A DNA stretch of 64,000 nt from an uncultured Pseudomonadales bacterium (GCA_958296295.1 OY282460.1:2666001-2730000); one strand, 5' to 3'; positions 5,103 to 48,864 are shown, counted from the first letter of the stretch. A program made the numbers and translations. Notes: generated from the sequence alone by a model not told the origin.

Positions 5103-6287
5103 TCAACCCGCGGCCGCGTTGAACACGCGCACGCTCAGCACTTCGTCAATGGCCTCGATGCGGCGCACCGCTTGCGGCGAAAGCGGCGTGTCCAAGTCGA
5201 TGAGGTTGTAGGCCACGTCGTCCTGGCTTTTGTTGATCATGTCGATGACGTTGATCTCCGCTTCGGCGAAAACGGTCGTCAGCTGCCCCAACATGCCGGC
5301 GACGTTCAAGTTGGTCACGGCGACGCGGTGGCCGGCCGGCGCGTCCAAAGACACGGTGGGGAAGTTCACCGAGTTGGCGACCGTGCCGTGGCGCAGGAAG
5401 GCGCGCAGCCGATCCGCCGCCATCACGGCGCAGTTCTCCTCCGCTTCGACCGTGCTCGCCCCCAGATGCGGCGTCGCGTACACGCCGGCCACGCCGGCGA
5501 GGGCGACGGTGGGAAAGTCCGAGAAGTAGGCGCGCAGGCGCTTCGTCTCCAAAGCCGCCTTGACCGCTGCGGCGTTCACGATCTCTTGCCGGGCGAAGTT
5601 GAGCAGCACGGCGCCGGGCCGACAGTGGCGCAACACGCGCTCGTCGACGAGGCCGACGGTGTCCGGCAGCGCGGGAAGGTGCAACGTCACATAGTCCGAA
5701 CGCGCCAGCAGCGCCGGCAGACTTTCCATGCGCCGCACTTCGCTCGGCAACCGCCACGCCGCATCCACCGACAACGCCGGGTCGTGGCCGAGCACGTCCA
5801 TGCCGAGCTGCAAGCCGGCGCGCGCCACCCGGGAGCCGACCGCGCCCAAGCCGACGATGCCGAGCGCTCGACCGGCCACTTCGTGGCCCCTGAAACGGCG
5901 CTTGTCCGCTTCGACTCGGCGATGCAACGCGTCGTCGTCGCCCACCGTGGCCAGCGAACGCGCGAAGTCGAAGCCGCCGAGCACATCGCGGGAGGCCAGA
6001 AAGAGGGCCGCCAGCACCAGTTCCTTCACCGAGTTGGCGTTCGCGCCGGGCGTGTTGAACACCACGATGCCCCGCCGCGTGCAATCCGCGACGGGCACGT
6101 TGTTGACGCCGACGCCGGCGCGCGCCACGGCAGCGAGACCCGGCGGCAGGTCGTCCACGCCGAGGCGATGGCTGCGCAGCAGCAAGGCGTGCGGTTCGGC
6201 CGTATCCGGCCCCACTTGGAAGCCCTCCCCCGACAGTCGCGCCAAGCCCTTGGCGGCTATCTGGTTGTAGGTTCTCACTCGATACAT
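5103..6287 (-). CDS. serA: D-3-phosphoglycerate dehydrogenase with C-terminal ACT domain
   Basis: Catalyses the first step of serine synthesis, NAD-dependent oxidation of 3-phosphoglycerate. The N-terminal substrate domain contains ARAGVGVNNVPV and NTPGANANSVKELVLAALF. The Rossmann domain has GIVGLGAVGSRVA, then the catalytic Arg in FARQEIV and the His in TPHLGAST. The C-terminal 80 residues (HRVAVTNLNVAGMLGQLTTV onward) are an ACT domain for allosteric control. The short form has no intervening ASB domain, and the usual catalytic Glu segment (DVFxxEP) is replaced by SDFPTVALAGV, a feature of this subfamily. ATG 6287 matches the family N-terminus (MYRVRTYNQIAAKGL); an upstream GTG at 6350 overlaps the murG stop and could also be used. 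No serB or serC is nearby. Confidence 0.88.
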   Translation of the reverse strand: MYRVRTYNQIAAKGLARLSGEGFQVGPDTAEPHALLLRSHRLGVDDLPPGLAAVARAGVGVNNVPVADCTRRGIVVFNTPGANANSVKELVLAALFLASRDVLGGFDFARSLATVGDDDALHRRVEADKRRFRGHEVAGRALGIVGLGAVGSRVARAGLQLGMDVLGHDPALSVDAAWRLPSEVRRMESLPALLARSDYVTLHLPALPDTVGLVDERVLRHCRPGAVLLNFARQEIVNAAAVKAALETKRLRAYFSDFPTVALAGVAGVYATPHLGASTVEAEENCAVMAADRLRAFLRHGTVANSVNFPTVSLDAPAGHRVAVTNLNVAGMLGQLTTVFAEAEINVIDMINKSQDDVAYNLIDLDTPLSPQAVRRIEAIDEVLSVRVFNAAAG

Positions 6288-6346
6288 CGCGCCCGACTCT
6301 CCCGCCCTGCTTGCCGCCCCACGCGATCGCGTCTCGGAAGCCTCAC

Positions 6347-7471
6347 TCACCGGTCGACAGTGCTGGCCGCCCGCTCCAGCTCGCGGATGACGAGGCCCAC
6401 GCTGTCACGGGCTTGGAAACCGGCGAGACGCCGCCGGATGCGGGGGGATTCGGCTGCCAGTTTAGCCAAACCGTCCAGCAAAGTCTTGGGGTTCAGCGCG
6501 TCTTCGTGCAGCACCTCGCTCCAACCTTGCGCCGCGGCGAACGCCGCGTTCTCGATCTGATCGCCGCGACTGGCGCGTTTCGGCAAGGGCACCAACAAGT
6601 GGGGCTTGCCCAAGGCCAGCCATTCGTAGAGGGCGCCGGCCCCGGCGCGCGACACCACCAGCTCCGCCGCGGCAATGATGTCGCCCCAGCCGGCTTCCAC
6701 GTATTCCAGCTGCGTGTAGCCCGTGAGGTCGCGCAACGCGGGCGCGATCTTGCCGGCGCCGCAGACGTGGACCACCGAATAGGTGGCGAGCAGCTCCCCC
6801 AAGGCGTCCCGCACCACCGCGTTCAACCGGGCGGCTCCCAGACTGCCCCCCACCACGAGCAGCACCGGCTTCTCATCGGCGAGGTTGAGGCGCGCCCGAC
6901 CTCGCGCCGCGTCGCCGGCCAGCAGGGCCTCGCGCAGCGGCGTGCCGGTCACCGCCACGGCCCGGTCGGCCGGGCTCTGCGGCTCGAAGTTCACGCACAG
7001 GCGGGCGACGAACGGAGCGGCCAGCCTATTGGCGAGACCCGGCGTCAAGTCCGATTCGTGGGCCACCGCCGGAATGCGGCGCAGCCAGGCGCCGAGCACG
7101 ACCGGAAAGGAAACGAATCCACCTTTGGAGAAGACCACCTGCGGGCGCAATCTGCCCAGCAGACGCCACGCCTGCCACACGCCGACCGGCACACGAAAAC
7201 AGTCCACGAGGTTTTGCAGGGAGAAGTAGCGGCGCAGCTTGCCGGTGGTGATGCCGTGGTAGGCGGTGGCGGACGGCGTCGCCAAACGCCTTTCGATGCC
7301 ATTCAAACCGCCGACGAAATGCACTTCCACGCCTTGTCGGCCAAGCGCCTCCATCACCGGCAGCGCCGGCACGACGTGGCCGGCGCTGCCGCCCCCCGCC
7401 ACCACCACCCGCGACAAGCGCCGGCCGCCATCGGCGTTCGCCGGCGCCTGGTGGCCCGCCCGCTCGGTCAC
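6347..7471 (-). CDS. murG: MurG-type UDP-GlcNAc:lipid I N-acetylglucosaminyltransferase
   Basis: A 374-residue GT28 enzyme that converts lipid I to lipid II on the cytoplasmic membrane face. Seen: the N-terminal glycine loop VVVAGGGSAGHVVPAL, the acceptor-side region SKGGFVSFPVVLGAWLRR followed by HESDLTPGLANR, the donor-domain loop GGSLGAARLN, and the UDP-GlcNAc pocket RAGAGALYEWLALGKPHLLVPLP. HESD-TPGLAN instead of the HEQN-GLTN of typical gammaproteobacterial MurG places it closer to Firmicute MurG. It lies outside a dcw cell-wall cluster, between hda and serA. Its GTG start overlaps the hda stop (GTGA). It may be a second or replacement MurG; whether a dcw copy exists cannot be told from here. 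Confidence 0.85.
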   Translation of the reverse strand: MTERAGHQAPANADGGRRLSRVVVAGGGSAGHVVPALPVMEALGRQGVEVHFVGGLNGIERRLATPSATAYHGITTGKLRRYFSLQNLVDCFRVPVGVWQAWRLLGRLRPQVVFSKGGFVSFPVVLGAWLRRIPAVAHESDLTPGLANRLAAPFVARLCVNFEPQSPADRAVAVTGTPLREALLAGDAARGRARLNLADEKPVLLVVGGSLGAARLNAVVRDALGELLATYSVVHVCGAGKIAPALRDLTGYTQLEYVEAGWGDIIAAAELVVSRAGAGALYEWLALGKPHLLVPLPKRASRGDQIENAAFAAAQGWSEVLHEDALNPKTLLDGLAKLAAESPRIRRRLAGFQARDSVGLVIRELERAASTVDR

Positions 7472-11450: not shown

Positions 11451-11645
11451 CCGGCCTCGCCCGTCAGCCGCATCGTCCGCAAATGGGGTACCATGCGCAG
11501 CCGCCGGCGCCTGGGCATGTCCGCCGCGCCGCACGGCGTCCAAATCCAACGGTTCCAAACCAATGAACAGGAGTTTGCGCGTGGCCAACATTCGCGTGTC
11601 GGGCGCGACGACGCCAACCGCGGCGCGAACGGCAAAGCGCAGCCC

Positions 11646-12551
11646 ATGACCGGCCCCCGCAAGACAAAGGGCATTGTTCTCGCCGGCGGCCGCAACATGC
11701 GCCTGCACCCGGTCACCATCGGCGTGTGCAAGCAGCTGCTGCCGATCTACGACAAACCCATGGTGTACTACCCGTTGACGACGCTGATGCTTGGCGGCGT
11801 GCGCGAAGTGCTCGTGGTTTCCACCCCGCGCGACACGCCGCGGCTGCGCGAACTGCTGGGCGACGGCGCGCAGTGGGGCATGCGCATCTCCTACGTCGTG
11901 CAAGGCCAACCCAAGGGTTTGGCCCACGCGTTTGTGGTCGGGCGCGACTTCGTCGGCGACGATTCGGTGGCGCTGATCCTCGGCGACAACGTGTTTTTCG
12001 GCAGCGAACTGCCGCGCAAGGCACGAGCAGCCATCGACGCCAATCGCGGCGCCACCGTGTTCACCTATCCGGTGCAAAATCCGAGCGAGTTCGGCGTGCT
12101 GGAGGTCGATTCCGTCGGACGACCTTTGGCGATAACCGAGAAGCCGGCGGTTCCGCGTTCCAACCTTGCCGTCACGGGGTTGTACGTCTACGACAACGAC
12201 GTGTTGGACATCGCCGCGTCGCTTACGCCGTCGGCCCGCGGCGAGCTGGAGATAACCGATGTGAACCGGGAATATCTGCGCGCCGGCCGCCTCGACGTGG
12301 TGCGGTTCGGACGCGGCATGGCCTGGCTCGACACCGGCACGCCCGAATCGCTGCTCGAAGCCAGCCTGTTCGTGCAAACCATCGAGCATCGGCAAGGTCT
12401 GAAGATCGCCTGCCCGGAGGAGGTGGCTTGGCGCATGGGATGGATCGCCGATGCCGGGTTGGCCGCTTTGGCCGAGCGGTCCCGCGGCCAACCGTATCGC
12501 GACTATTTGCAGGGTTTGCTGGTCGAGGGCCGCGAGGCGAACGGCGACTGA
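11646..12551 (+). CDS. rmlA: Glucose-1-phosphate thymidylyltransferase, variant nucleotide loop
   Basis: RmlA makes dTDP-glucose, the first step to dTDP-L-rhamnose. Almost the whole family pattern is present: KQLLPIYDKPMVYYPLTTLM, STPRDTPRLRELLGDG, LGDNVFFG, ITEKPAVPRSN, TDVNREYL and AWLDTGTPESLLEA. The exception is the N-terminal phosphate-binding loop. Where the family has GGSGTRL, this protein has GGRNMRL, so the second Gly and the Thr are lost. The catalytic Arg and the downstream lysine (SK/CKQLLP) remain. ATG 11646 is chosen because homologous sequence begins there; the frame is open further upstream. It opens the polysaccharide island; rmlB is absent from the window. Confidence 0.85.
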   Translation: MTGPRKTKGIVLAGGRNMRLHPVTIGVCKQLLPIYDKPMVYYPLTTLMLGGVREVLVVSTPRDTPRLRELLGDGAQWGMRISYVVQGQPKGLAHAFVVGRDFVGDDSVALILGDNVFFGSELPRKARAAIDANRGATVFTYPVQNPSEFGVLEVDSVGRPLAITEKPAVPRSNLAVTGLYVYDNDVLDIAASLTPSARGELEITDVNREYLRAGRLDVVRFGRGMAWLDTGTPESLLEASLFVQTIEHRQGLKIACPEEVAWRMGWIADAGLAALAERSRGQPYRDYLQGLLVEGREANGD

Positions 12552-12755
12552 GCCGCGACGTGTGCCGTTCGCGACAGCGTGGAGCCGCGCGCGCCGAAAA
12601 CGCCTTTGGCCATGCCCGTGTCTCGGCTGGCGGGCCAGGCAGGTTCCCGTCGCGATTCGCCGACCACGCCCGGCGGCCGGCGTGAAAGCGCCGCGACCAC
12701 TCCCAGACGGAAGACCGCGCGACACCGAGGCGGTCTTTCGCGATCCGGCGAAATC

Positions 12756-13535
12756 GTGATTCTCATCCAAACGCATCTGTGGCGGTACGCCCTGTACCGC
12801 GCCTATCTGAACTTGGTGGGCGAAGCGGCCAAACTGCATTTGGGCTGGTTGTGGTGGTTCCTCGAGCCGATAGCCATGACCGCGGTGTTTTTCGCGGTCT
12901 TCACCTATCTGCGGCCCATGCGCGGCGGCGGCATCGAGAACTTCACCGCCTTCCTGATCATTGGCGTGACGACTTGGCTTTGGTTCGCCAACGCGGTGGG
13001 AAACTGCACGGACGTGCTGGTTGGCGCGCGCGCCATCGTTTCGCAGATGCGTCTGCCAAAACTGCTCTTTCCGACCATTGCCGTGGTTTCCGCGTCTTTG
13101 AAACAAGTGTTCGTGTTCGTGGTGCTCCTGTTGTTCATCGGCGCCATGTTCGGGGTCTCCTGGACGTGGCTGTTCCTGCCGCTTCTCGCGGTGACCCAGC
13201 TAGTGATCATTCTCGCCACTGCCGCGGTGGTGGCGTTCGTGTGCTGCTGCGTCCGTGATGTTCGTTTTCTTGTGCGTTCCGGCCTCACCTTGATGATGTT
13301 CTGCTCCGGGCTGTTTTTTTCCATCGACGATCTCGGCGCCGAGTGGCGCTTCTGGTTTCGTCTGAACCCCATGGCGGTGATCATCGAACAGTATCGGGCG
13401 GTGCTGCTTCACCACTCGTCGCCTGACGTGGCGTGGTGCCTGGGCGCGGTGGCGGTGGGTGCGCTTTTCCTCTTCGGCCTCAAGTGGCTGTATCAGCGTT
13501 TCGACCGGACGCTCACTCGCCGGATCATCGCCTGA
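12756..13535 (+). CDS. wzm: ABC-2 type polysaccharide export permease (Wzm/KpsM-like)
   Basis: A 259-residue integral membrane protein with six predicted helices, the transmembrane half of an ABC-2 transporter that moves lipid-linked polysaccharide across the inner membrane. GWLWWFLEPIAMTAVFF near residue 30 and RLPKLLFPTIAVVSASLKQ are typical of the O-antigen/capsule exporter family. GTG 12756 starts at the first conserved residues; the reading frame upstream to 12579 is arginine/proline-rich and does not look coding. Its stop overlaps the ATPase start (TGATG), so both transporter halves are made together. Confidence 0.85.
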   Translation: MILIQTHLWRYALYRAYLNLVGEAAKLHLGWLWWFLEPIAMTAVFFAVFTYLRPMRGGGIENFTAFLIIGVTTWLWFANAVGNCTDVLVGARAIVSQMRLPKLLFPTIAVVSASLKQVFVFVVLLLFIGAMFGVSWTWLFLPLLAVTQLVIILATAAVVAFVCCCVRDVRFLVRSGLTLMMFCSGLFFSIDDLGAEWRFWFRLNPMAVIIEQYRAVLLHHSSPDVAWCLGAVAVGALFLFGLKWLYQRFDRTLTRRIIA

Positions 13536-14230
13536 TGCGGCTCGCTGGCGTGTCCGTCGTGTACACGGAAACCGGCCTCGACTCGCCCGGCGCCCGCGTC
13601 GCGGCGTTGCGCGACGTCTCGGTGCGCGTCGCCCGGGGCGAGAAGCTCGGCGTGGTGGGTGCGAACGGCGCCGGCAAATCCACGCTGCTCAGGGTGATGG
13701 CGGGCGTTGTCAAGCCGGACGCGGGGCAAGTGGACGATGGCGGATTGTCCTGCGCGTTCCTGTCGTTGCAGGCCGGTTTCGACAACGAACTGTCCGGCGA
13801 GCGGAACATCGTGATGCACGGCATGTTGACCGGGCTCACGCGCAAGGAAGCTCAAGCCCGTATCCCGGCGGTGGCCGAGATGTCCGGCCTCGGGGACGCT
13901 TTGGCGCGGCGCGTCAGCACCTATTCCACCGGAATGCGCGGTCGGCTCTGCTTTTCCACGGCGATAGATCTGGATCCCGAGGTGCTGCTGCTCGACGAGA
14001 TCTTCAGCGTCGGCGACATCGAGTTCCGGGAAAAATCCGAACGGATAATGTTGGAGCGGTTTCAAGGCGACAAGGCGGTGGTCTTTGTCTCGCACAATCT
14101 CAAGATGATGGAGCGCGTTTGCGGGCGCGTCATCTGGCTGGACAACGGCCGCGTCCGGGCCGCAGGCGCTGCGCGCGACTTGATCGCGCAATACCGCAAA
14201 GCGAGTTCACAGACCGCCGACGGCGCCTAA
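13535..14230 (+). CDS. wzt: ABC transporter ATPase for polysaccharide export (Wzt/KpsT-like)
   Basis: A 231-residue nucleotide-binding subunit partnering the permease just upstream. Walker A GANGAGKST, the signature YSTGMRGRL (the modified form usual in polysaccharide exporters), Walker B VLLLDEIFSVGD and the switch His in VFVSHNLKMM are all present. The protein ends right after the ATPase core. It lacks the C-terminal carbohydrate-binding domain that lets some Wzt proteins recognise a capped chain end, so export is more likely of the KpsT-like, cap-independent type. It converges with rmlD, overlapping it by four bases. Confidence 0.87.
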   Translation: MRLAGVSVVYTETGLDSPGARVAALRDVSVRVARGEKLGVVGANGAGKSTLLRVMAGVVKPDAGQVDDGGLSCAFLSLQAGFDNELSGERNIVMHGMLTGLTRKEAQARIPAVAEMSGLGDALARRVSTYSTGMRGRLCFSTAIDLDPEVLLLDEIFSVGDIEFREKSERIMLERFQGDKAVVFVSHNLKMMERVCGRVIWLDNGRVRAAGAARDLIAQYRKASSQTADGA

Positions 14231-15126
14231 CCGACGGGCGGGATGTGCGCCTTGGCGCGCAGATAGCGATCCAGCGCGTCCCGCCATGTCGCCATTTCCC
14301 CAAAGTCGGCAGTGGCTTTGGCATTGTCGAGCACGCTGTACGCCGGCCGCCGCGCCCGCGTTGGATAATCGCTGCTCGCGCATGGGGTCACTTCGGTGTC
14401 GATGCCAACGCGACGGATGATTGCCTTGGCGAAGTCGAACCACGTGGCCGCGCCCGTGTTGACGACGTGGTAGACGCCCGTGGCCCGTTCCACGAGGGCG
14501 CGCACCATCGTTCGGGCCACATCGTGGGTGCCGGTCGGCGACATGAACTGATCGTGTACCACCCGCAACGGGCCGCGCCGGCCGGCGTTGATGATCGTCT
14601 CGACGAAGTTCCCCCCCTTGGCGCTGGCGCCACGCACACCGAACAACGAGGCCACCCGCAACACCAGGACGTCGTCGCACTCCTCCAGCGCGTTGACTTC
14701 TCCAAGCGCTTTGGAGGCGCCGTAGACGTTCACCGGCGCCACCGGCGCCGTCTCTGCAAGAGGCGCGCGGCGAGCCGCGTCGCCGCCGAACACGTAGTCC
14801 GTGCTGATGTGCGTCAATCGGGCTTTTTTGCGCGCGCAGACCCGCGCCATCACGCGCACGGCCTCGGTATTCACTTGGAAGGCCAAGGCGGGATTGTCCT
14901 CGGCTTCGTCCGTCTTGTGATAGCCGGTGCAGTTGACGAGGATGTCGAAGCGTTGGGCCGCCAAGCGGCTTTCGGCGTCTGCTGAGGCGACGTCCAGTTG
15001 GCCGCGGGCCAAGCCATGCAACTCGAACGGTTCGCCCGCAGCGGCATGGGCCTTGCGAAAGTCGGCGCCAAGCTGGCCGCGCGCGCCAAGCAGCACCAGG
15101 CGCGGGCGTCTGCCCGGGCGAGTCAT
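14227..15126 (-). CDS. rmlD: dTDP-4-dehydrorhamnose reductase
   Basis: Last step of dTDP-L-rhamnose synthesis: reduction of the 4-keto sugar. The N-terminal nucleotide loop is LLGARGQLGADF. VNCTGYHKTDEAEDNPALAF, ISTDYVFGGD and the catalytic pair YGASK follow. The C-terminus has RRPAYSVLDNAK, a hallmark of RmlD. At 299 residues it is full length. Strand and spacing put it at the 3' end of a minus-strand operon (cysC, fusion protein, GT4, rmlC, epimerase, rmlD). Confidence 0.9.
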   Translation of the reverse strand: MTRPGRRPRLVLLGARGQLGADFRKAHAAAGEPFELHGLARGQLDVASADAESRLAAQRFDILVNCTGYHKTDEAEDNPALAFQVNTEAVRVMARVCARKKARLTHISTDYVFGGDAARRAPLAETAPVAPVNVYGASKALGEVNALEECDDVLVLRVASLFGVRGASAKGGNFVETIINAGRRGPLRVVHDQFMSPTGTHDVARTMVRALVERATGVYHVVNTGAATWFDFAKAIIRRVGIDTEVTPCASSDYPTRARRPAYSVLDNAKATADFGEMATWRDALDRYLRAKAHIPPVG

Positions 15127-15148
15127 CCGGCGAACCTGGGCCGTATCG

Positions 15149-16177
15149 TCATATGTCCAGAATGCCGCCGTGCAGTTCCACTTCGCGGATCACGCCGTGC
15201 CAATGCGCGAGCTGGCGATACCAGTCCAACGTGATCGTCTTCGCGGTCTTCTCCACGGCGCCGCGCGCAAGCGCCTCGCAGATTTCCGCGACGCCGTCGA
15301 TCGCGTTCCATTTCACGCGAAATCCGAGAGCTTCGATCTTCCCGAACGCAACGCGGTAGCTGCGATGATCCGGTTCCCCGTACCACGCGACTTCCACGTT
15401 CCGCGGCACGTTCTCGGCCACAAGATCGCCAAGCGGCCCGATCTGGTAGGTGTTGTCGCCCGAACCGACATTGAACGTCTGCCCGTTCACCGCCGCGCTC
15501 GCCGCCTCCAAGGCGAAGATCTGCGCCCGCGCCGCGTCGCGCACGTGCAGCATCGGCCGCCACTGCGAGCCGTCGCGCATCAGCGGCAGTCTGCCGGTGC
15601 TCCACGCGCCGTAGGTCATGCCGTTGATGGCAAGGTCGAAGCGCATCCGCGGCGACAGGCCGAAAACAGTCGCCTGACGCAACGCCACCACGCAAAAGTC
15701 CGCGGCCGCCAGCGGCAAGATGTCGCGTTCGGCCATCGCGTTGGCTCGAGCGTAGTGGGTAAGCGGTTTTGGCGGCGTGTTTTCGTCCGCCACCACATCG
15801 CCCTGCTGAAATCCGTAGATGCTGCACGACGACGGCAGAACATACCGTTCGGCACCGGCGGCTCGCGCCAGACGCGCGCACCGAACCCGCGCTTCGTGGT
15901 TGATCTGATACGTGGCGTGTTCGAAAAACTCGCTGGACGGGTCGTTGGAGATCGCCGCCAGATCGATCACCGCGTCCACTCCCTCGAAGTGCGAGGCGGT
16001 CAGCTTGCGGCAGTCCTCCACGACCACCTCGAGCCCTTCGTCCGCGGCCAGCAGATCGCGTCCAAAAAAGAACCGATCCACCGCGCGGACCCGGTAGCCG
16101 GAATCCAGCAGCATCGGCGTCAGAACGGTGCCGATGTAGCCGCCGGCGCCTGTCACCAGCACGCGCTTCACGGGCAT
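15149..16177 (-). CDS. NAD-dependent sugar epimerase/dehydratase (extended SDR), atypical active site
   Basis: A 342-residue extended short-chain dehydrogenase/reductase acting on nucleotide sugars. The NAD loop is VLVTGAGGYIGTVL, the adenine-site Asp is in VDRFFFG, and the serine strand is LPSSCSIYGF. The catalytic Tyr is in HYARANAM: the expected YxxxK is YARAN, so the general-base lysine is Asn. RPMLHVRDAARAQ and FNVGSGDNTYQI are typical of the family. It is not RmlB, whose motifs differ. ATG 16177 is the first start before the Rossmann fold. It lies between rmlC and rmlD, so it probably modifies another sugar of the same glycan. Confidence 0.8.
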   Translation of the reverse strand: MPVKRVLVTGAGGYIGTVLTPMLLDSGYRVRAVDRFFFGRDLLAADEGLEVVVEDCRKLTASHFEGVDAVIDLAAISNDPSSEFFEHATYQINHEARVRCARLARAAGAERYVLPSSCSIYGFQQGDVVADENTPPKPLTHYARANAMAERDILPLAAADFCVVALRQATVFGLSPRMRFDLAINGMTYGAWSTGRLPLMRDGSQWRPMLHVRDAARAQIFALEAASAAVNGQTFNVGSGDNTYQIGPLGDLVAENVPRNVEVAWYGEPDHRSYRVAFGKIEALGFRVKWNAIDGVAEICEALARGAVEKTAKTITLDWYRQLAHWHGVIREVELHGGILDI

Positions 16178-16247
16178 TCCGCCTGTTGGCACATGCGAAT
16201 GAAACCCTCGCTTCCACCGCCACGCGCGCTGCTCGCGAACTCGCTTC

Positions 16248-16832
16248 TCACGTCCCCGTTCCAGCGCCGGGGCCGTTGTACACGAACGGCGATGACGCCT
16301 CGGCGAGCCGCGGCAAAGCGCGGTCGCGATCGGAAACGATGGCCTCCCCCGCCGCGATCGGCCATTCGATGCCCAGCGCCGCATCGCTCCACAAGACGCC
16401 GCGATCGTGGCTCGGCGCGTAGTAGGCGCCAACCTTGTAGAGTATCTCGGTGTCCGCCTCCAGCGTCATCAGCCCGTGCGCGAAACCCGCCGGAACAAAC
16501 AACTGGTTCCCGGCGTCGGCGGACAACACGACAGCGACGTGGCGCCCGTAGGTTGGCGAGCCGCATCGCACATCCAACGCCACGTCGTAAACGGAACCGC
16601 GAACCACCCGCACGAGCTTGTGCTGGTCGTGGGGCGGTTCTTGGAAGTGCAGCCCGCGCACGGTGCCCCGGTCCGCGGAGAACGAGTGATTGTCCTGCAC
16701 GAACTCCGCGTCCACGCCGACTTGGGCGAACGTCCTGCGATTGTAGACCTCGGAAAAGAAGCCGCGTTTGTCCCCGTGCCTGGCCGGTGTCAAGAGAACC
16801 ACGTCGGGTATGGCGAGTTCTCGCACTTGCAT
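16248..16832 (-). CDS. rmlC: dTDP-4-dehydrorhamnose 3,5-epimerase
   Basis: A 194-residue cupin enzyme converting dTDP-4-keto-6-deoxyglucose to dTDP-4-keto-L-rhamnose. FFSEVYNRRTFAQVG, FVQDNHSFS, the catalytic His in VRGLHFQEPP, KLVRVVRGSVYDVALDVR, PAGFAHGLMTL and WSDAALGIEWP all match RmlC, and the catalytic Asp lies in SDRDRALP. It starts 4 bases after the glycosyltransferase stop, so the two are in one operon. With rmlA and rmlD it supplies three of the four steps to dTDP-L-rhamnose. Confidence 0.92.
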   Translation of the reverse strand: MQVRELAIPDVVLLTPARHGDKRGFFSEVYNRRTFAQVGVDAEFVQDNHSFSADRGTVRGLHFQEPPHDQHKLVRVVRGSVYDVALDVRCGSPTYGRHVAVVLSADAGNQLFVPAGFAHGLMTLEADTEILYKVGAYYAPSHDRGVLWSDAALGIEWPIAAGEAIVSDRDRALPRLAEASSPFVYNGPGAGTGT

Positions 16833-16835
16833 GAT

Positions 16836-18005
16836 TCAGACCGCGCCGCCGTTCGGGGCCTCGGCATCATCGCCAGCAGTCCATTGCGCGTAAAAGAGCT
16901 CCAACGCGTCCTGCAAGCCGTCCAGCTTGGCGGCGCTTTCCACGAAGGGCGGCGCGCGCTCGGCCACGGTCTCGTGCCACCGCCCAACCTCGCCGGCCAG
17001 CACACGCGGCAACATCGCGACGATGCGCTCGACGCTCGGCCGGCCGTTCAGGGCGTAGCCGAGCCGAGCCAACAAGGCCGCGCTCGCCCCCGTGCCGGTG
17101 AACGCCACGACTTTGCGGCCCAGCAGCAACGCCTCCGCCACCACGAGCGGGTTCGGATCCTCGCGCGAGGTCAACAAGAACGCGTCGGCGCGGCGAAGAT
17201 GCGCATAGGGGTTCTCGGTGATTCCCGTGAAGTAGAAGTTCCGCACCCGGAGGGATTGGAAACGCTCGTAGGTCTTGTCGTTGAGATCCGTTTCCGCCGG
17301 CGCCCACGGGCCTACCCAGACAAAATCGTACTGCTGCAACCGCTCGGCGACCGCCAAGAAGATGTCCGCGCCTTTGCGAGGCTGCGCCAGCCCGCACATG
17401 GCGACCGCCAGCCGGTCGCTGCTGGCCGGCAGCGCCTCGCCGCGCTCGTTCACCGGCGGCGGCACAGCCTGCTCCCCGCCCGCCCGCACGACGTCCCCAT
17501 CCACGAAAATGCCGATGTCCAGCGTCTTCGCCACGGACGTGGACGTGAGTTCCTGCAGATCCTCCAGAGCCGTTCGCGACGCCCCGACCAAGAGGTCCGC
17601 GAAGCGCAGCACTCGGGGCGTACACACGCTGGACAACAGCGACGGCAGACTGTCCCGGGTCTCGTGGGTGTGCAGCACCACGGCCACGCCGGATCTCTTG
17701 CCGGCCTCGCACCACTCCCCGGCGCTCACCGAGTTCACATACAGGAGATCGGGTTTCAGTTCGGCAAGAATCCGCTCGGCGTGGACAACCCGTTGCCGGT
17801 ACGTTTGATCGCAGACTTCGTGGCTCGTGTTCAACACTCGATACGACGGGCGCAAGTGCTCGTACCACGGAAAGTCGATGAGGGGCCCCTTCTTCTTGGC
17901 GAGCAGCGAAACCTCGTGCGTTCGCGCCAAGTGGGCGGCGATATCGAAGCCGATGCGCGGCGCGCCCGTCAAACTCGCGTCGTGGCAAACCACGCAAACC
18001 CGCAT
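16836..18005 (-). CDS. GT4-family glycosyltransferase
   Basis: A 389-residue GT-B glycosyltransferase. The N-terminus MRVCVVCHDASLTGAPR, followed by LLYVNSV and HTHETRDSLPSL, is the acceptor domain. The C-terminal donor domain has GLAQPRKGADIFL, FTGITENPYAHLRRADAFLL and the nucleotide-sugar signature SREDPNPLVVAEALLLGRKVVAF, including the E-x7-E type pair. Donor and linkage cannot be read from sequence; the neighbours (rmlC, sulfotransferase-RgpF fusion) suggest a rhamnose-containing surface glycan. It is separated from the fusion gene by 7 bases. Confidence 0.85.
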   Translation of the reverse strand: MRVCVVCHDASLTGAPRIGFDIAAHLARTHEVSLLAKKKGPLIDFPWYEHLRPSYRVLNTSHEVCDQTYRQRVVHAERILAELKPDLLYVNSVSAGEWCEAGKRSGVAVVLHTHETRDSLPSLLSSVCTPRVLRFADLLVGASRTALEDLQELTSTSVAKTLDIGIFVDGDVVRAGGEQAVPPPVNERGEALPASSDRLAVAMCGLAQPRKGADIFLAVAERLQQYDFVWVGPWAPAETDLNDKTYERFQSLRVRNFYFTGITENPYAHLRRADAFLLTSREDPNPLVVAEALLLGRKVVAFTGTGASAALLARLGYALNGRPSVERIVAMLPRVLAGEVGRWHETVAERAPPFVESAAKLDGLQDALELFYAQWTAGDDAEAPNGGAV

Positions 18006-18012
18006 GGGCTTG

Positions 18013-21000
18013 CTACCGCCATTCCACGCGGAGGCCCATGTCGCGCGCCACCGCCGGGAAAACCCGCTCGATGGCGTGCGCCCATTGCCCGTCGCGATGA
18101 AACGTCAAGGATTTCTCGTCGCCGCGTTCGAACTCTATCGCCGCTTCTCCCGCCTCGGTCGCCGTTCCGGCCGCCGCCGCCACCCCGACGAAGACGCGTT
18201 CCAGCACTTCTCGACGCAGGAACATCATCGTGCCCGAGAGGAAGTCCACGACCCGGTGTTCCTCCCTCACGCCCAGGCGATCCAGCAGATCGAAATACTT
18301 GTCGGGATTGTCGTTCAGTTGCGTGTACCGGCACCGCTCGGCGCCGAGCATGCCGATCGACTCGTCGGCCAGCAGGCGGCGGACGTTGTCGCTCGCGGTT
18401 TCCGCCGTGCCGAGCAAAGGCGTCAACAACTTTCGTCGCCAGAGCTGCACCTCGCCCTTGCCCATGTGCGGGCTCTTTTTCGTGTGAACCAGACAGAACA
18501 GCGGGTAATCCGCCATGCGGATGTTCCGCAACGTCTGAAAATGGCCGCCGATGTCGCGGCCTTCGTTCTTGCTGATGAAAACCCTGGCCTCGGGAAAGTC
18601 GTCCCGCACGCTCGTCAGCAATTCCTGGGTGAACGTCGTGTCCACCAGATTGACGTACAAGTCGTGGCAATTCGGCGCCAAGTTCGCCAGATAGCCGGAC
18701 AGTTCCGGCCAAAGCTCCGGATAGTAGACGTGCGCGAGAACGCACAACGCCTTGGCGCCGACCCTTGGCTCGGCGGCCGTATCGACGCCGGCCGGCGATG
18801 GCGCCCCGGACTTGCCATTGTCGTTTCGCAAAGTGTGCAAACGCGGCTCCCAGCGTCCGGCGGACATGTAGTGCCGCAGAACCTCAAGGGCCGGCTTGTT
18901 CGCGAACCCGGCCTGAAGATCCGGATACAAGCCGAGGTACTCGTCGGCTTGAAAGTCGATGGGGATCTCGCGCGGGCTGTCGCAAATCGTCCGCAAGAAC
19001 TCGCCTTTGGAGCAGATGCGGGATTCGGCGTGGCCGTGTTTCTCGTAGTGGGTCCGCAACGCGGCGTCGTCCAATCCGGCAAGATCCGCATGCAGCGCGC
19101 CGTAGAACGCCGGGTCGAAGGCGAAGGCGTCTGGCGCCGACAGGTCGCAGCGATGCAGATCGCGGATCAGCGGATCCAGCTCGTCGTCGGAGATGTCGAT
19201 CGGCAGTCGGCCTTCCGAGTATCCCGCCTCCATATAGTGGGTGAGCGGATCTTGCTCGGCGGCTCGAACATCGTCGTTGGTCGCCAAGTAGTATTCGGGA
19301 TCGAACAAAATCGGCACCGTCGCGTTGTTGCGCGACGCCTCGAAGTTTCGATCCGCCAAATCCAAGCGCCCGCAATGGCCGTAGGTCCGGGCCGACGGGG
19401 CGCGCGAAAGCAAGTGCCGGCCGGCGCCGTCGGGAAGAGCCTTCACGATCCGGCCCTTCCACCGCGTTCGCCTTGCCGCCCCGACCGGCAACAACCGCCA
19501 AAACGCCCGCAGCGCGTAGTAGCGCGGCCGAGGTGTTCTCGCCGCGACCGCTGGCGGGCCCGCCTCCTCATCCGCGGCCTCGCCGGCCGGTTCGCCGCCC
19601 AGCTTCGTTCGCACCCAGCGCAACGGTTTGGTGACCCGCCAAGACGTGGACGACCGCAACGCGTCGATGGCCTGGTTGAGCTCACTAGCGTGGGCCGCGC
19701 CATCCGCCAAGGCTCGGCGCAAACCGCCGATGCGCCCGTCCCGCTCGGCGATGCGCCCGTCCCGCTCGGCGATGCGCTCGTCCCGTTCGGCGATGCGTTC
19801 ATCCCGCTGCGCGAGGTGCATGTCCCGCTCGGCGATGGTGTTGGCGAGCGCGTTGGCGCGCGCCTCGTGCTCGGCCACCGCCGAGCCCAGCTGGTCGATG
19901 CGGACGTCGCGCTCGGCCACCTTCTCGCCGAGCCAGGCGAGGCGTTCGTCCCGCTCGGCAACCCTGTTCGCAAGCGCGCTGGCGCGCGCCTCGTGCTCGG
20001 CCGCCGCCGAGCCCAGCTGGTCGATGCGGACGTCGCGCTCGGTCATCTTCTCGCCGAGCCAGGCGAGGCGTTCGTCCCGCTCGGCAACCCTGTTCGCAAG
20101 CGTGTTGGCGCGCGCCTCGTGCTCGGCCACCACCGAGCCCAGCCGGTCGATGCGGACGTCGCGTTCGATCAGTGCCGTGTTCATCTGGCCGATCTGCCTG
20201 TCGCGCGCCTGCACGGTTTCGTTCGTGGCGTTGAGCATGCCGTCTCGCTCGGCTACCGCATGGATCAACGCATCCGTTCGAACATCCCGATCAACGATGG
20301 CCTGGTCTAGCGAAGCCAGTTGGTCTTGTTGTCTTTCGATGTCCTTGTTCAGGCCGTCTATGACGTCGTCTCTGTCCCGCACGGCACGACTCGACGAATC
20401 GAGCTGAACTTCGTGCCGCGCGATCACCTCGTCCCTGTCCCGCACCGCTTGATTCAACGAGTCGAGCTGAACTTCGTGCCGGGCGATCACCTCGTCCCTG
20501 TCCCGCACGGCCTGTCTCAACGAGTCGCGCCGACCTTGGTGCCCGGCGATAACCTCGTCCCTGTCGCGCACGGCTTGTCCCAACGAGTCTATTTCGCGGT
20601 CGCGCGCGGCGATCACGTTGCCTTGCGCTTGCAGTTCCTTTTCCAACGCGCTGTTGCGCTTGCCAAGCCGCGCGCTGACGATGACCGGTTGGCGAAATAC
20701 GGCGCAGGCGTCGTCGAACTCGCTGCGGACCGCATCCAGCCGGCCCGCGTCGTCCGCGTCACGTTGCCCGCGCGACCAGCGCGAGAGAATGTCGAACGTC
20801 GACCTCGTCCAACGCGACAAGGCCGGATCCGCAAGGGCATCGTCCGCCTTTTGATGCCGCAACGCGGGCGAAACACGCTGATCCAGCTCGATGGCGGCGG
20901 TGGCGGACGGCTTTGGCCAAACGACGCCCAAGTCGCTGCCGAGGCGCTCCGCCACGGTCGACCAGTCTTCGAGCGTGTCGTCGTAGCGCGCGAACGCCCG

Positions 21001-21612
21001 CCGGTGCGGGCGCGAACCTTCTTCGGCTGCCAGCACGTTGCGCAGCCACAAGAGCATGCCCACCGATGGCGGGATGGCGTCGCGGTCGGCCAGAGACGCC
21101 GACGTTTCCAAGGGATTGCGCAGCGCAACGGCAATACGCGGCTCGGCACCGGCCCGTTGCGCGACATCGCACCAGAAGGGCAGGAGGCGGCACAACCGAG
21201 GATCCTTCAACACGAACAAGCCGCTATCGGCGAATTCGCTCTCGAGCAGCGCTTGGGCTTGGGGGCGGAACGCCTGGGCGGCCGGCGAAGCGAACCAGTC
21301 CGCGCTCAAGTGTTCCCAATCGTCCCACGCCGAACCGGCGGACTTCAGCATGGCGTCATTCAAAGCCGTGACCTTTGTCGATTCCCAATACCCCGTGCCG
21401 TTGTATTCGTCCGCTTCCATCAATGTCTTGGGCGCGTCGCAACCCAAACCCACGAGCACTTGGGTCAGCAAGGACGTGCCGCTACGGTGCATTCCCGCCA
21501 CCAGCACCGCCACCCGGGCCGTTGTGTTCGCCGCAGCGCCGGCGTTGCCCCGCCGCTTGGTCTTCGGGTCGCGAGCGCCGGGGCCACCCGCGCTTCTGGC
21601 GCCTGCGCCCAT
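18013..21612 (-). CDS. Sulfotransferase / coiled-coil / rhamnan-synthesis F (RgpF) fusion
   Basis: A 1199-residue three-part protein. Residues about 30-280: a PAPS-dependent sulfotransferase, with the 5'-phosphosulfate loop VLVAGMHRSGTSLL and a 3'-phosphate region ALRNPLETSASLADRD. Residues about 320-655: a long acidic/basic coiled coil made of nested repeats, ending in the SSTSWRVTKPLRW motif often seen before glycan-enzyme domains. Residues about 770-930: three diverged copies of a FDPEYYLATNDDV...HYMEAG motif. Residues about 955-1195: an RgpF-type domain (AHVYYPELWPELSGYL, ISKNEGRDIGGHF, LVHTKKSPH). The ATG at 21612 overlaps the cysC stop (TGATG), linking it to the PAPS source. Likely role: adding sulfate and/or sugars to a rhamnan-like glycan; inference. 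Confidence 0.85.
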   Translation of the reverse strand: MGAGARSAGGPGARDPKTKRRGNAGAAANTTARVAVLVAGMHRSGTSLLTQVLVGLGCDAPKTLMEADEYNGTGYWESTKVTALNDAMLKSAGSAWDDWEHLSADWFASPAAQAFRPQAQALLESEFADSGLFVLKDPRLCRLLPFWCDVAQRAGAEPRIAVALRNPLETSASLADRDAIPPSVGMLLWLRNVLAAEEGSRPHRRAFARYDDTLEDWSTVAERLGSDLGVVWPKPSATAAIELDQRVSPALRHQKADDALADPALSRWTRSTFDILSRWSRGQRDADDAGRLDAVRSEFDDACAVFRQPVIVSARLGKRNSALEKELQAQGNVIAARDREIDSLGQAVRDRDEVIAGHQGRRDSLRQAVRDRDEVIARHEVQLDSLNQAVRDRDEVIARHEVQLDSSSRAVRDRDDVIDGLNKDIERQQDQLASLDQAIVDRDVRTDALIHAVAERDGMLNATNETVQARDRQIGQMNTALIERDVRIDRLGSVVAEHEARANTLANRVAERDERLAWLGEKMTERDVRIDQLGSAAAEHEARASALANRVAERDERLAWLGEKVAERDVRIDQLGSAVAEHEARANALANTIAERDMHLAQRDERIAERDERIAERDGRIAERDGRIGGLRRALADGAAHASELNQAIDALRSSTSWRVTKPLRWVRTKLGGEPAGEAADEEAGPPAVAARTPRPRYYALRAFWRLLPVGAARRTRWKGRIVKALPDGAGRHLLSRAPSARTYGHCGRLDLADRNFEASRNNATVPILFDPEYYLATNDDVRAAEQDPLTHYMEAGYSEGRLPIDISDDELDPLIRDLHRCDLSAPDAFAFDPAFYGALHADLAGLDDAALRTHYEKHGHAESRICSKGEFLRTICDSPREIPIDFQADEYLGLYPDLQAGFANKPALEVLRHYMSAGRWEPRLHTLRNDNGKSGAPSPAGVDTAAEPRVGAKALCVLAHVYYPELWPELSGYLANLAPNCHDLYVNLVDTTFTQELLTSVRDDFPEARVFISKNEGRDIGGHFQTLRNIRMADYPLFCLVHTKKSPHMGKGEVQLWRRKLLTPLLGTAETASDNVRRLLADESIGMLGAERCRYTQLNDNPDKYFDLLDRLGVREEHRVVDFLSGTMMFLRREVLERVFVGVAAAAGTATEAGEAAIEFERGDEKSLTFHRDGQWAHAIERVFPAVARDMGLRVEWR
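19729..19812 (-). repeat. Four 7-residue (21-bp) coiled-coil repeats
   Basis: Four tandem heptads AQRDERI, AERDERI, AERDGRI, AERDGRI within the fusion protein. At DNA level they are near-identical 21-bp units, the smallest of three nested periods in this coiled coil. Confidence 0.85.
19789..20166 (-). repeat. Three 42-residue (126-bp) coiled-coil repeats
   Basis: Three tandem copies of a unit beginning ERDVRID(R/Q)LGS and containing AEHEARA(N/S)(T/A)LAN. The first two copies are almost identical; the third diverges at its end into the 7-residue repeats. DNA is highly similar, so recent unequal exchange is likely. Confidence 0.9.
20383..20571 (-). repeat. Three 21-residue (63-bp) coiled-coil repeats
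   Basis: Three tandem copies of VRDRDEVIA(G/R)H...DS...A in the fusion protein. The second and third copies are identical over their first 16 residues. A fourth, more diverged unit (VRDRDDVIDGL) follows. Confidence 0.85.
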
Positions 21613-22247
21613 CAACCGGGTTCCTTTTCGCCAAGGCCGGCGGCGAAGCGGGAAGTCACGAAACGGGTCAAGGTGGCAAGCGACCGCGCCACGCTTTCCT
21701 TTGTCGTGTCGATGACGAGCGACGGACGCTCGGGGGCCTCATAGACGTCGTCCACCGCCGTGAAGCGTTTGATCTGGCCGGCCCGCGCCTTGCGGTAGAG
21801 GCCTTTGGGATCGCGCATTTCGCAGGTGGCGAGATCGGCGCGAACGTACACCTCGTGGAACCGCCCCGGCGGCAAGTCGCGCATGACCGCCTGGCGCGCC
21901 TTCTCGCGATCGGCGCGGTACGGAGAAATGAAGGCGGAAACGCAAATGTAGCCCAACATGGCCAACAGCGCCGCGACATGGCCGACGCGACGTATGTTCT
22001 CCGTGCGATCCGCATGCGCGAAGCCGAGGTCGTCGTTCAAGCCGTGGCGCATGTTGTCGCCATCGAGCACGGCGATCTGAAAACCGTCGCGAAACAGTGT
22101 TTCTTCAAGCGCGAAGGCCAGTGTGGATTTGCCCGCCCCCGATAAACCCGTGAGCCAAAGCACGCCGCCGGCGTGTCCGCTTCGCGCCTCGCGCTCGGCG
22201 AGCGAGACGCGATGTTCTATCGGCTTGATGTCGGCGGCGTGGATCAT
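21612..22247 (-). CDS. cysC: Adenylylsulfate (APS) kinase
   Basis: A 211-residue kinase making PAPS from APS and ATP. The Walker A GLSGAGKSTLA, the APS-site LDGDNMRHGLNDDLGF, RTENIRRVGHVAALLAMLG and SPYRADREKAR, and the C-terminal FTAVDDVYEAPERPSLVIDT are all family signatures. ATG 22247 is chosen because upstream residues do not match the family. No sulfate-assimilation genes (cysDN, cysH) are nearby. Its stop overlaps the start of the sulfotransferase fusion, so this copy most likely feeds PAPS to glycan sulfation rather than to cysteine synthesis. Confidence 0.9.
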   Translation of the reverse strand: MIHAADIKPIEHRVSLAEREARSGHAGGVLWLTGLSGAGKSTLAFALEETLFRDGFQIAVLDGDNMRHGLNDDLGFAHADRTENIRRVGHVAALLAMLGYICVSAFISPYRADREKARQAVMRDLPPGRFHEVYVRADLATCEMRDPKGLYRKARAGQIKRFTAVDDVYEAPERPSLVIDTTKESVARSLATLTRFVTSRFAAGLGEKEPG

Positions 22248-22342
22248 GCGGGCGTGAGTGCTGCAAGGCTTGGGATTATACGCTTGCGGTGGTTTCGTTC
22301 GCTGTTCGGGCCGGCACCGCAAGAGGCGCTTGCGTTGTGCCG

Positions 22343-23164
22343 TCAACTCCCGGCGTCCCGCGCCCACTTGGCGAGGGCTTGATTCTGGCGCTTGATCTCC
22401 GCCGCGATCTGGGCGAGTTCGCCGGCCATCTGCTGCACGGCGGCGCTCACCATGTCGGTGCCGCCGGCGATGGAGACCAATGCGCCGATGTGCTTGCCAA
22501 GATTCTCCTCGGCGGATTGGATGGCTTCGACGATCGCGCCGATCGTTTCCCGGGTGGTCGGCTCTTGGGTGGTCGATGTCTCAACATACGGTTCGGCAAC
22601 GGGTAGCGGCGCCACCGTGGTGGAGGCGATGGCCGGCGGCACCGTCTCGACCGCGGTCGTCGAAGGTTCAAGAGAGGCGTCCGCGACGGTCTGGGCGGGC
22701 GTGAAAGCAACGGTCCCCGTGGCGTAGGCCGCGTCGCCCGGCGGGACCTCGGCGAACATTCCCGGCGAGACCAGCGAGCCGTCCTCCCGTTCCGTCAGCA
22801 GGGGCGGTTCCGGGGCTTGCGGCCGCGGCGGCAGACTGTCCAACGACAAGCTACCCATGCCGGAGGCCGCGGCGTCCATTCGCTCGGCCAGATCAGCCCG
22901 TTGCCCGGCATCCAACGCGAAAAGGCCCAAGGCTGCTTGGCGGATCAGGTCGGCGGCCTCGGCGGTGGGCGGCACCCAGCCGTCCAACTGGACGCCAAGC
23001 AGGTTTTCCGCCGAGCGCGCCAGTTCACCGACCGGCCCGACGCCCGCCGTCGCGCGGACGTCGGCAAAGGCCGCGCGCAGCCCCGCCAAGGCGCCAGCGT
23101 GGCTCGGCTCCCGGCCCAGACGGGCGAGGTCGGCCTCGGCTTCACGGAGAAATCGCTCTTCCAT
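22343..23164 (-). CDS. Uncharacterised protein with degenerate HPt-like N-terminus
   Basis: About 273 residues, no clear family. Residues 1-110 are helical and follow the HPt/CheA P1 pattern: MEERFLREAEADLARL, then AFADVRATAGVGPVGELARSAENLLG, then QAALGLFAL. In true HPt domains the corresponding helix carries HTLKGSA with the phospho-accepting His; here no His is present, so phosphotransfer is unlikely. The middle (about 120-200) is Pro/Thr/Ala-rich and probably disordered. The last 60 residues (IGAIVEAIQSAEENLGKHIG to IAAEIKRQNQALAKWARD) form amphipathic helices, possibly a coiled coil. ATG 23164 is chosen; the frame is open to TTG 23212. It lies upstream of cysC on the same strand. Confidence 0.55.
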   Translation of the reverse strand: MEERFLREAEADLARLGREPSHAGALAGLRAAFADVRATAGVGPVGELARSAENLLGVQLDGWVPPTAEAADLIRQAALGLFALDAGQRADLAERMDAAASGMGSLSLDSLPPRPQAPEPPLLTEREDGSLVSPGMFAEVPPGDAAYATGTVAFTPAQTVADASLEPSTTAVETVPPAIASTTVAPLPVAEPYVETSTTQEPTTRETIGAIVEAIQSAEENLGKHIGALVSIAGGTDMVSAAVQQMAGELAQIAAEIKRQNQALAKWARDAGS

Positions 23165-23250
23165 CAAGCTACGATTCGGCACCGTGGAAACGGCGCGGAG
23201 TCCTGCCGCCAATGTGAGCGTGGCGAATGTTGGACATGTTCTTTAGCACG

Positions 23251-46847: not shown

Positions 46848-47264
46848 CTATGCCAGCGCTTCCAAAGCTCTTTGGAAGCGGTTGGCGTGGGATCGCTCGG
46901 CCTTGGCGAGCGTCTCGAACCAGTCCGCGATCTCCTCGAAGCCTTCTTGGCGCGCCGTCTTGGCCATGCCCGGGTACATGTCCGTGTACTCGTGCGTCTC
47001 GCCGGCGATGGCCGCCTTCAGATTGTCGCCGGTGGCGCCGATGGGCAAGCCGGTGGCCGGATCACCCACGGCCTCCAAGTACTCCAGATGGCCGTGCGCG
47101 TGACCGGTCTCGCCTTCGGCGGTGGAACGGAACACGGCGGCCACGTCGTTCTCGCCTTCAATGTCGGCCTTGGCCGCGAAGTAGAGGTAGCGGCGGTTGG
47201 CCTGGGATTCGCCGGCGAAGGCGTCCTTCAGGTTTTGCAGGGTTTGGCTTGCCCCGAGTTGCAT
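46848..47264 (-). CDS. rbr1: Rubrerythrin-family diiron peroxidase, copy 1
   Basis: A 138-residue four-helix-bundle protein: [58 protein letters not shown] and [17 protein letters not shown] supply the paired E-x-x-H/E ligands for a diiron site. It lacks the C-terminal rubredoxin domain of classical rubrerythrin, so an external electron donor is needed. Rubrerythrins reduce hydrogen peroxide. It is 129/138 identical to the second copy at 48448-48864, counted directly. An OxyR box lies just upstream, and the Fe-S protein and DUF3501 genes follow. Confidence 0.9.
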
Positions 47265-48447: not shown

Positions 48448-48864
48448 CTACGCCATAGCGTCCAGCGCCTTCTGGAAGCGGTTGGCGTGCGAGCGTTCGG
48501 CCTTGGCGAGGGTCTCGAACCAGTCCGCGATCTCCTCGAAACCCTCGTCCCGCGCCGTCTTGGCCATGCCCGGGTACATGTCGGTGTACTCGTGCGTCTC
48601 GCCGGCGATGGCGGCCTTCAGGTTGTCGCCGGTGCCGCCGATGGGCAACCCGGTGGCCGGATCGCCCACGCCTTCCAAGTACTCCAAGTGGCCGTGCGCG
48701 TGGCCCGTCTCCCCCTCGGCGGTGGAGCGGAACACCGCCGCCACGTCGTTCTCGCCTTCGATGTCGGCCTTGGCCGCGAAGTAGAGGTAGCGGCGGTTCG
48801 CTTGGGATTCGCCGGCGAAGGCGTCCTTCAGGTTCTGCAAGGTTTGGCTGGTGCTGAGTTCCAC
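48448..48864 (-). CDS. rbr2: Rubrerythrin-family diiron peroxidase, copy 2
   Basis: 138 residues, differing from copy 1 at nine positions, mostly at the two ends and in the EGVGD/GGTGD turn. All diiron ligands ([46 protein letters not shown]) are retained, and the rubredoxin domain is again missing. Start GTG 48864 has a strong SD (GAAGGGAG). TATGAT on the minus strand near 48897-48902 is a candidate -10. I found no OxyR box here equal to the one before copy 1. It lies upstream of oxyR on the same strand and divergent from the MATE gene. Confidence 0.9.

Follow-up and report, generated by a model that had tools for sequence, protein, structure and literature searches.

A predicted O-polysaccharide locus with a fused sulfotransferase gene

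The window is a 64,000-nucleotide stretch of DNA from an uncultured Pseudomonadales bacterium (GCA_958296295.1 OY282460.1:2666001-2730000) and carries on its minus strand, at 18013-21612, a single open frame that begins with an ATG at 21612 and runs for 1,199 aa with 0 internal stops. The first-pass annotation gave no strand for this frame and described its product as a sulfotransferase, a giant coiled coil and an RgpF domain in one protein, a description borne out by the open frame, the domain matches, the structural models and nine orthologs; the fusion is real and forms one chain. Its setting, which was absent from that annotation, is a predicted ABC-transporter O-polysaccharide locus comprising wzm, wzt, rmlA, rmlC, rmlD and a GT4 gene. 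The plus strand (11493-14230) carries rmlA, wzm and wzt, and on the minus strand (14227-22367) cysC, the fusion gene, the GT4 gene, rmlC, an SDR gene and rmlD follow in series:

11493-12551, plus strand: rmlA (TIGR01207, 426.5 bits, over the cut-off)
12579-13535, plus strand: wzm, ABC-2 type permease for polysaccharide (PF01061, E 2.1e-8)
13535-14230, plus strand: wzt, exporter ATPase without a C-terminal cap-binding domain (best NCBIfam match galactan-type Wzt/RfbE; start estimated as the ATG overlapping wzm)
14227-15126, minus strand: rmlD (TIGR01214, 261.5 bits, over the cut-off)
15149-16178, minus strand: SDR-type sugar epimerase/dehydratase, start estimated (PF01370, E 1.7e-36)
16248-16832, minus strand: rmlC (TIGR01221, 219.6 bits, over the cut-off)
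16836-18005, minus strand: GT4-type glycosyltransferase directly downstream of the fusion (PF13692, E 1e-10; about 60% identical neighbour in related loci)
18013-21612, minus strand: sulfotransferase–coiled coil–RgpF protein, whole gene (open frame; same architecture in nine orthologs)
21612-22367, minus strand: cysC, APS kinase, which makes PAPS (TIGR00455, 229.5 bits against a cut-off of 138.7; stop overlaps the next start)

The window Wzt ends after its ATPase domain, and a search for Wzt_C (PF14524) gave no match anywhere in the genome. The glycan had been proposed to be rich in rhamnose, and of this the dTDP-rhamnose context stands, with rmlA, rmlC and rmlD in the locus; no genome match to RmlB (TIGR01181) reaches the cut-off (best 126 of 365 bits), so that the completeness of the dTDP-rhamnose pathway is not established from sequence.

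The cysC stop codon TGA and the ATG of the fusion share one base in a TGATG at 21614-21610, and an AAGGAA upstream of this ATG is a plausible ribosome-binding site. The genome encodes two APS kinases, the other of which, the assimilatory one, is located inside an 867-aa frame 2 kb from a PAPS/APS reductase; because that copy sits near the reductase, cysC of the window is taken to be an extra, local copy. The overlap and the second kinase together uphold the earlier proposal that PAPS supply is linked to its use. Immediately before cysC, also on the minus strand, is a 289-aa open frame (22343-23212) with no Pfam or NCBIfam match.

Domains of the fusion protein

The fusion protein is divided into the following parts, all on the minus strand:

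20758-21513, minus strand: predicted PAPS-dependent sulfotransferase domain, N-terminal, residues 34-285 (conserved GMHRSGTS and R-x-P-x5-S; AlphaFold pLDDT 94.7; Z 15.8 to tyrosylprotein sulfotransferase-1 with PAP)
19651-20751, minus strand: coiled coil, residues ~288-654, proposed ruler (heptad periodicity z 4.6; length varies among orthologs; first part modelled as one helix)
19597-19650, minus strand: STSWRVTKPLR motif and beginning of a basic helix where the coil ends, possible membrane contact (same motif in stand-alone relatives)
18778-19317, minus strand: three DPEYYLA-type helical repeats, residues 766-945 (from sequence; 53% identity among orthologs; helices of low to moderate model confidence)
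18016-18756, minus strand: RgpF domain, predicted GT-A type glycosyltransferase, residues 953-1199 (PF05045, E 1.2e-16; confident model part aligns to GT-A glycosyltransferases)

The N-terminal domain is predicted to be a PAPS-type sulfotransferase. GMHRSGTS at residue 40 corresponds to the 5'-PSB motif of PAPS enzymes and RNPLETSAS at 165 to the 3'-PB motif, and the key residues of both are invariant in an alignment of 60 relatives, in which a K-D-P-R motif is also conserved. The Pfam profile PF13469 (Sulfotransfer_3) scores 16.7 bits on the window protein, below its curated cut-off of 27, which is passed by relatives such as L034 (36.4 bits) and L117 (36.1 bits). The nearest solved folds to the AlphaFold model are PAPS sulfotransferases, namely the tyrosylprotein sulfotransferases and the CurM and OLS sulfotransferase domains (Z 13-16), which share only 11-18% identity with the window domain and differ in their acceptors. 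Superposition on tyrosylprotein sulfotransferase-1 with PAP (5wrj_A) extends over 208 residues at an rmsd of 3.7 (Z 15.8), and Foldseek returns the CurM domain 4gbm with an E-value of 1.5e-5. A PAPS-loop sulfotransferase at the N-terminus, as first annotated, thus agrees with both the intact motifs and the modelled fold; an N-terminal domain lacking PAPS binding, the outcome that was to count against the annotation, does not fit the conserved motifs at the sequence level.

The coiled coil had been put at about 330 residues, and this figure is retained: hydrophobic residues recur with a 3.5-residue period over ~288-654 (z = 4.6 against shuffles), proline and glycine together make up 5%, and the first part is modelled as a single helix. 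Matches of Pfam and NCBIfam coiled-coil families (HAUS1, SMC, Cbp1) were ignored as low-complexity matches, and a PDB sequence search gave coiled-coil or chance matches only. At the proximal end of the coil the helical moment is 0.28 in the window and 0.21-0.69 in relatives, and the basic helix located here possibly touches the membrane. Further downstream, the three DPEYYLA-type motifs of the first-pass annotation can be read from the sequence: a canonical FDPEYYLATNDDVRAA stands at 770, and two further copies, near 846 and 903, have diverged.

The C-terminal rhamnan-synthesis F domain passes its profile cut-off (PF05045, 60.9 bits against 25). The C-terminal model is usable for the last ~250 residues only, the rest being modelled poorly, and within this part the predicted fold of the RgpF domain is that of GT-A glycosyltransferases, with Z-scores of up to 13.1; the hyaluronan synthases reach 13 and the rhamnosyltransferase RmlT 11.6. 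This fold, and the failure to find a transmembrane segment in the fusion protein, speak against the suggestion that the protein tethers the glycan, and a tether or anchor role was dropped.

Orthologs and the wider family

The same sulfotransferase–coil–RgpF protein is encoded in nine genomes of a single sister genus within the family, among them the MAG RHO1_bin_84 (L053), which is identical to L150. The orthologs have cysC, GT4, rmlC/D or wzm/wzt nearby, and their Wzt, where seen, is short as well. Their sulfotransferase is 54% identical over its full length and their RgpF domain 60%, and the coil only 37% over a coverage of 54%, its length ranging about threefold (~110 to ~330 residues, or ~16-50 nm if each residue adds 0.15 nm). 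Coil lengths differing by whole heptads were considered as a signature and dropped: the pattern is suggestive among the nearest orthologs, and across the family, with 14 distinct lengths (p 0.37), other periods do equally well or better.

The window's own genus-mates encode a distant version in which the coil is followed by GT2 and GT4 modules, with rml genes and cysC alongside. The gene flanking the window locus (window 5103-6350) is also found close to the locus in four of these genus-mates, and it looks as if O-antigen cassettes were exchanged at one site.

A search of named genomes with the full-length protein as query found no relative. A motif-anchored scan of named genomes gave at least 558, and the 80 best of these, mostly from Alphaproteobacteria, were retained. 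The predicted sulfotransferase–coil family is widespread in Pseudomonadota. Among 124 sulfotransferase frames, 104 have a coiled-coil-like stretch behind the domain; the figure for other long frames is 118 of 534. The modules after the coil include GT2, GT4, RgpF with WsaF, and a methyltransferase with a GT; many relatives instead end with a basic tail shortly after an SWRxTxPLR motif, while others run on into glycosyltransferases. In many such stand-alone proteins the STSWRVTKPLR-type motif lies 17-29 residues before the stop. A Hyphomicrobiales MAG has a further RgpF fusion, and so does Mesorhizobium sp. B2-3-12, there together with WsaF domains. In the latter (L129:9806-13513, plus strand) a 1,236-residue frame joins the sulfotransferase, RgpF and WsaF_N/WsaF_C, and a Wzt bearing Wzt_C is encoded 1.6 kb downstream. 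The family tree needs four label changes, three of which are forced by well-supported branches; the doubtful fusion, L123, has a partial sulfotransferase match and a very long branch and was not counted. Predicted RgpF fusions arose at least twice more in the family. Recurrence of the two domains in one chain, which the first-pass annotation had named as a check, is therefore found both in the nine orthologs and in the further fusions.

Of 41 family loci, 15 have cysC no more than about 10 kb away, and a Wzt with the cap-reading Wzt_C is present in 8 of 119; in L023, L067 and L117 it is encoded directly upstream of the sulfotransferase gene on the same strand. In the Wzt ATPase of two genus-mates the place of Wzt_C is taken by a C-terminal sulfotransferase-like domain (L034:1299-2882, minus strand; L031:4916-6340, plus strand). 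The two domains are 32% identical, with the PAPS motifs intact in L034 (PF13469, E 9e-23) and lost in L031, and may either sulfate the chain at the exporter or do no more than recognise it. Such a fusion was rejected as a general rule, as only 2 of 206 genomes match the whole fused query. Two loci also have a stand-alone sulfotransferase gene, next to wzm in L034 (3531-4328) and next to wzt in L026 (2767-3588).

Known terminators and the proposed role of the fusion

In characterised terminators a coiled-coil ruler separates the terminating enzyme, at its distal end, from the glycosyltransferases at the other (PMC11231755), and the Wzt of these systems carries a cap-reading domain (PMC11231755; PMC9445017). 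ORF6 of Klebsiella pneumoniae O7 and WbbB of O12 are built like the window protein, as one chain with an N-terminal terminating enzyme, a long coiled coil and C-terminal glycosyltransferase module(s), and are also encoded in ABC-transporter O-polysaccharide loci; O7 in addition has rml genes and a rhamnose end (PMC11231755). They differ in having a methyltransferase-kinase or a Kdo transferase where the window has a sulfotransferase, and the window differs in its RgpF-type transferase, the cysC in its operon and a Wzt without a cap-binding module. WbdD of E. coli O9a and K. pneumoniae O3 and O5, with its distal modifying enzyme, coiled coil and membrane-proximal end, resembles the stand-alone proteins that end after SWRxTxPLR, but it is a kinase/methyltransferase that works with a separate polymerase and a Wzt with a cap-binding domain. 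Of the features of the terminator class, the window has a modifying enzyme and an extended coil in one chain, a GT module beyond the coil and Wzm/Wzt in the locus; Wzt_C on the Wzt is missing here and present in eight related loci. The window protein may work like a ruler–terminator, and, given a short Wzt and a genome without a Wzt_C match, it is not assigned to the cap-gated class. No description of a sulfotransferase as a coiled-coil terminator was found in the papers searched, and an earlier mention elsewhere is possible.

A second point of comparison is provided by the sulfated capsules of Cobetia marina KMM 1449 and Vibrio sp. KMM 8419, whose clusters, like the window, combine cysC/PAPS genes, rml, RgpF, a sulfotransferase and an ABC exporter. 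The Cobetia capsule contains 2-sulfated rhamnose in each repeat, and in its cluster sulfotransferase genes adjoin RgpF and rml; the Vibrio cluster has an extra cysNDC set. In contrast to the window, their sulfotransferases are described as separate genes with no coil fusion reported, export is of the Kps type and the sulfate is inside the repeat unit.

Sulfation is proposed, with slightly better than even confidence, to cap and size an ABC-exported, rhamnose-containing O-polysaccharide, the fusion being a polymerase–terminator with a built-in ruler. The mechanism is drawn from the domains, cofactor motifs, coil, gene neighbourhood and conserved ends around a coil of variable length, all read from sequence or model. 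The RgpF domain and the adjacent GT4 enzyme would extend a lipid-linked chain at the membrane, and the coiled coil would keep the sulfotransferase tens of nanometres from the membrane end, so that its length may determine which chains are long enough to reach the enzyme and receive sulfate from the PAPS of co-translated CysC. Sulfation of the end sugar would then stop growth, and Wzm/Wzt would export the chain, presumably as LPS O-antigen. The ruler–terminator reading is suggested by a domain order equal to that of characterised terminators (PMC11231755) and by the nine orthologs, in which both enzyme ends are conserved and the length of the coil varies. It is further suggested by relatives that either add polymerase modules after the coil or end with the SWRxTxPLR tail, which are the two known terminator layouts, and by the frequencies of Wzt_C-bearing Wzt, cysC and coils among related loci and frames given above. 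The Wzt of the two genus-mates with a sulfotransferase-like domain also points to a link between sulfation and export. Against this reading stand coil lengths that do not cluster by whole heptads, the lack of an RmlB over the cut-off and the poor C-terminal model outside the last 250 residues.

The main rival, possible though somewhat doubtful, holds that the enzyme sulfates rhamnose inside the growing chain, that the coil only oligomerises or spaces enzymes and that export determines chain length, as it does in galactan-type short-Wzt systems. The short Wzt, in the window and where seen in the orthologs, its best family match to a galactan-type exporter and the genome without PF14524 all favour this rival and count against capping, as do the Cobetia and Vibrio glycans, which are chemical precedents for sulfate within a repeat. 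Yet in these precedents the sulfotransferases are described as genes of their own, active sites held ~16-50 nm apart by a coil do not resemble a processive decoration site, the coil alone varies in length among the orthologs, and related sulfotransferase–coil genes occur with a cap-reading Wzt. That the sulfotransferase domain acts on another target, or is an inactive binding domain in a scaffold, is improbable; the sub-threshold Pfam match and the lost PAPS motif in the L031 Wzt would agree with it, but the window protein keeps its PAPS-site motifs unbroken, the alignment of 60 rows shows them conserved, and its translation is coupled to that of a second APS kinase. That two unrelated genes were joined by chance or by misassembly is refuted by the same domain order in nine orthologs from a family-mate genus, the family tree holding at least two further RgpF fusions, and is given practically no weight.

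Extended to the family, the ruler–terminator reading would make sulfate a new kind of O-antigen cap, with a widespread sulfotransferase–coil ruler family ending and sizing surface glycans and, in the window, elongation and termination in one chain with translationally coupled PAPS supply; this wider claim is held at just short of an even chance. If true, sulfate would be a new termination chemistry beside the caps that PMC9445017 and PMC11231755 name, which are methyl, phosphate, methylphosphate and Kdo. It would also explain many unassigned sulfotransferase-family genes in Alpha- and Gammaproteobacteria and predict where sulfated surface glycans occur, and the orthologs would be natural coil-length variants for the ruler model.

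Elsewhere in the window, two 138-aa genes on the minus strand (46848-47264 and 48448-48864) have near-identical N-termini, are rubrerythrin-like by eye and flank another gene; they are probably a local duplication.
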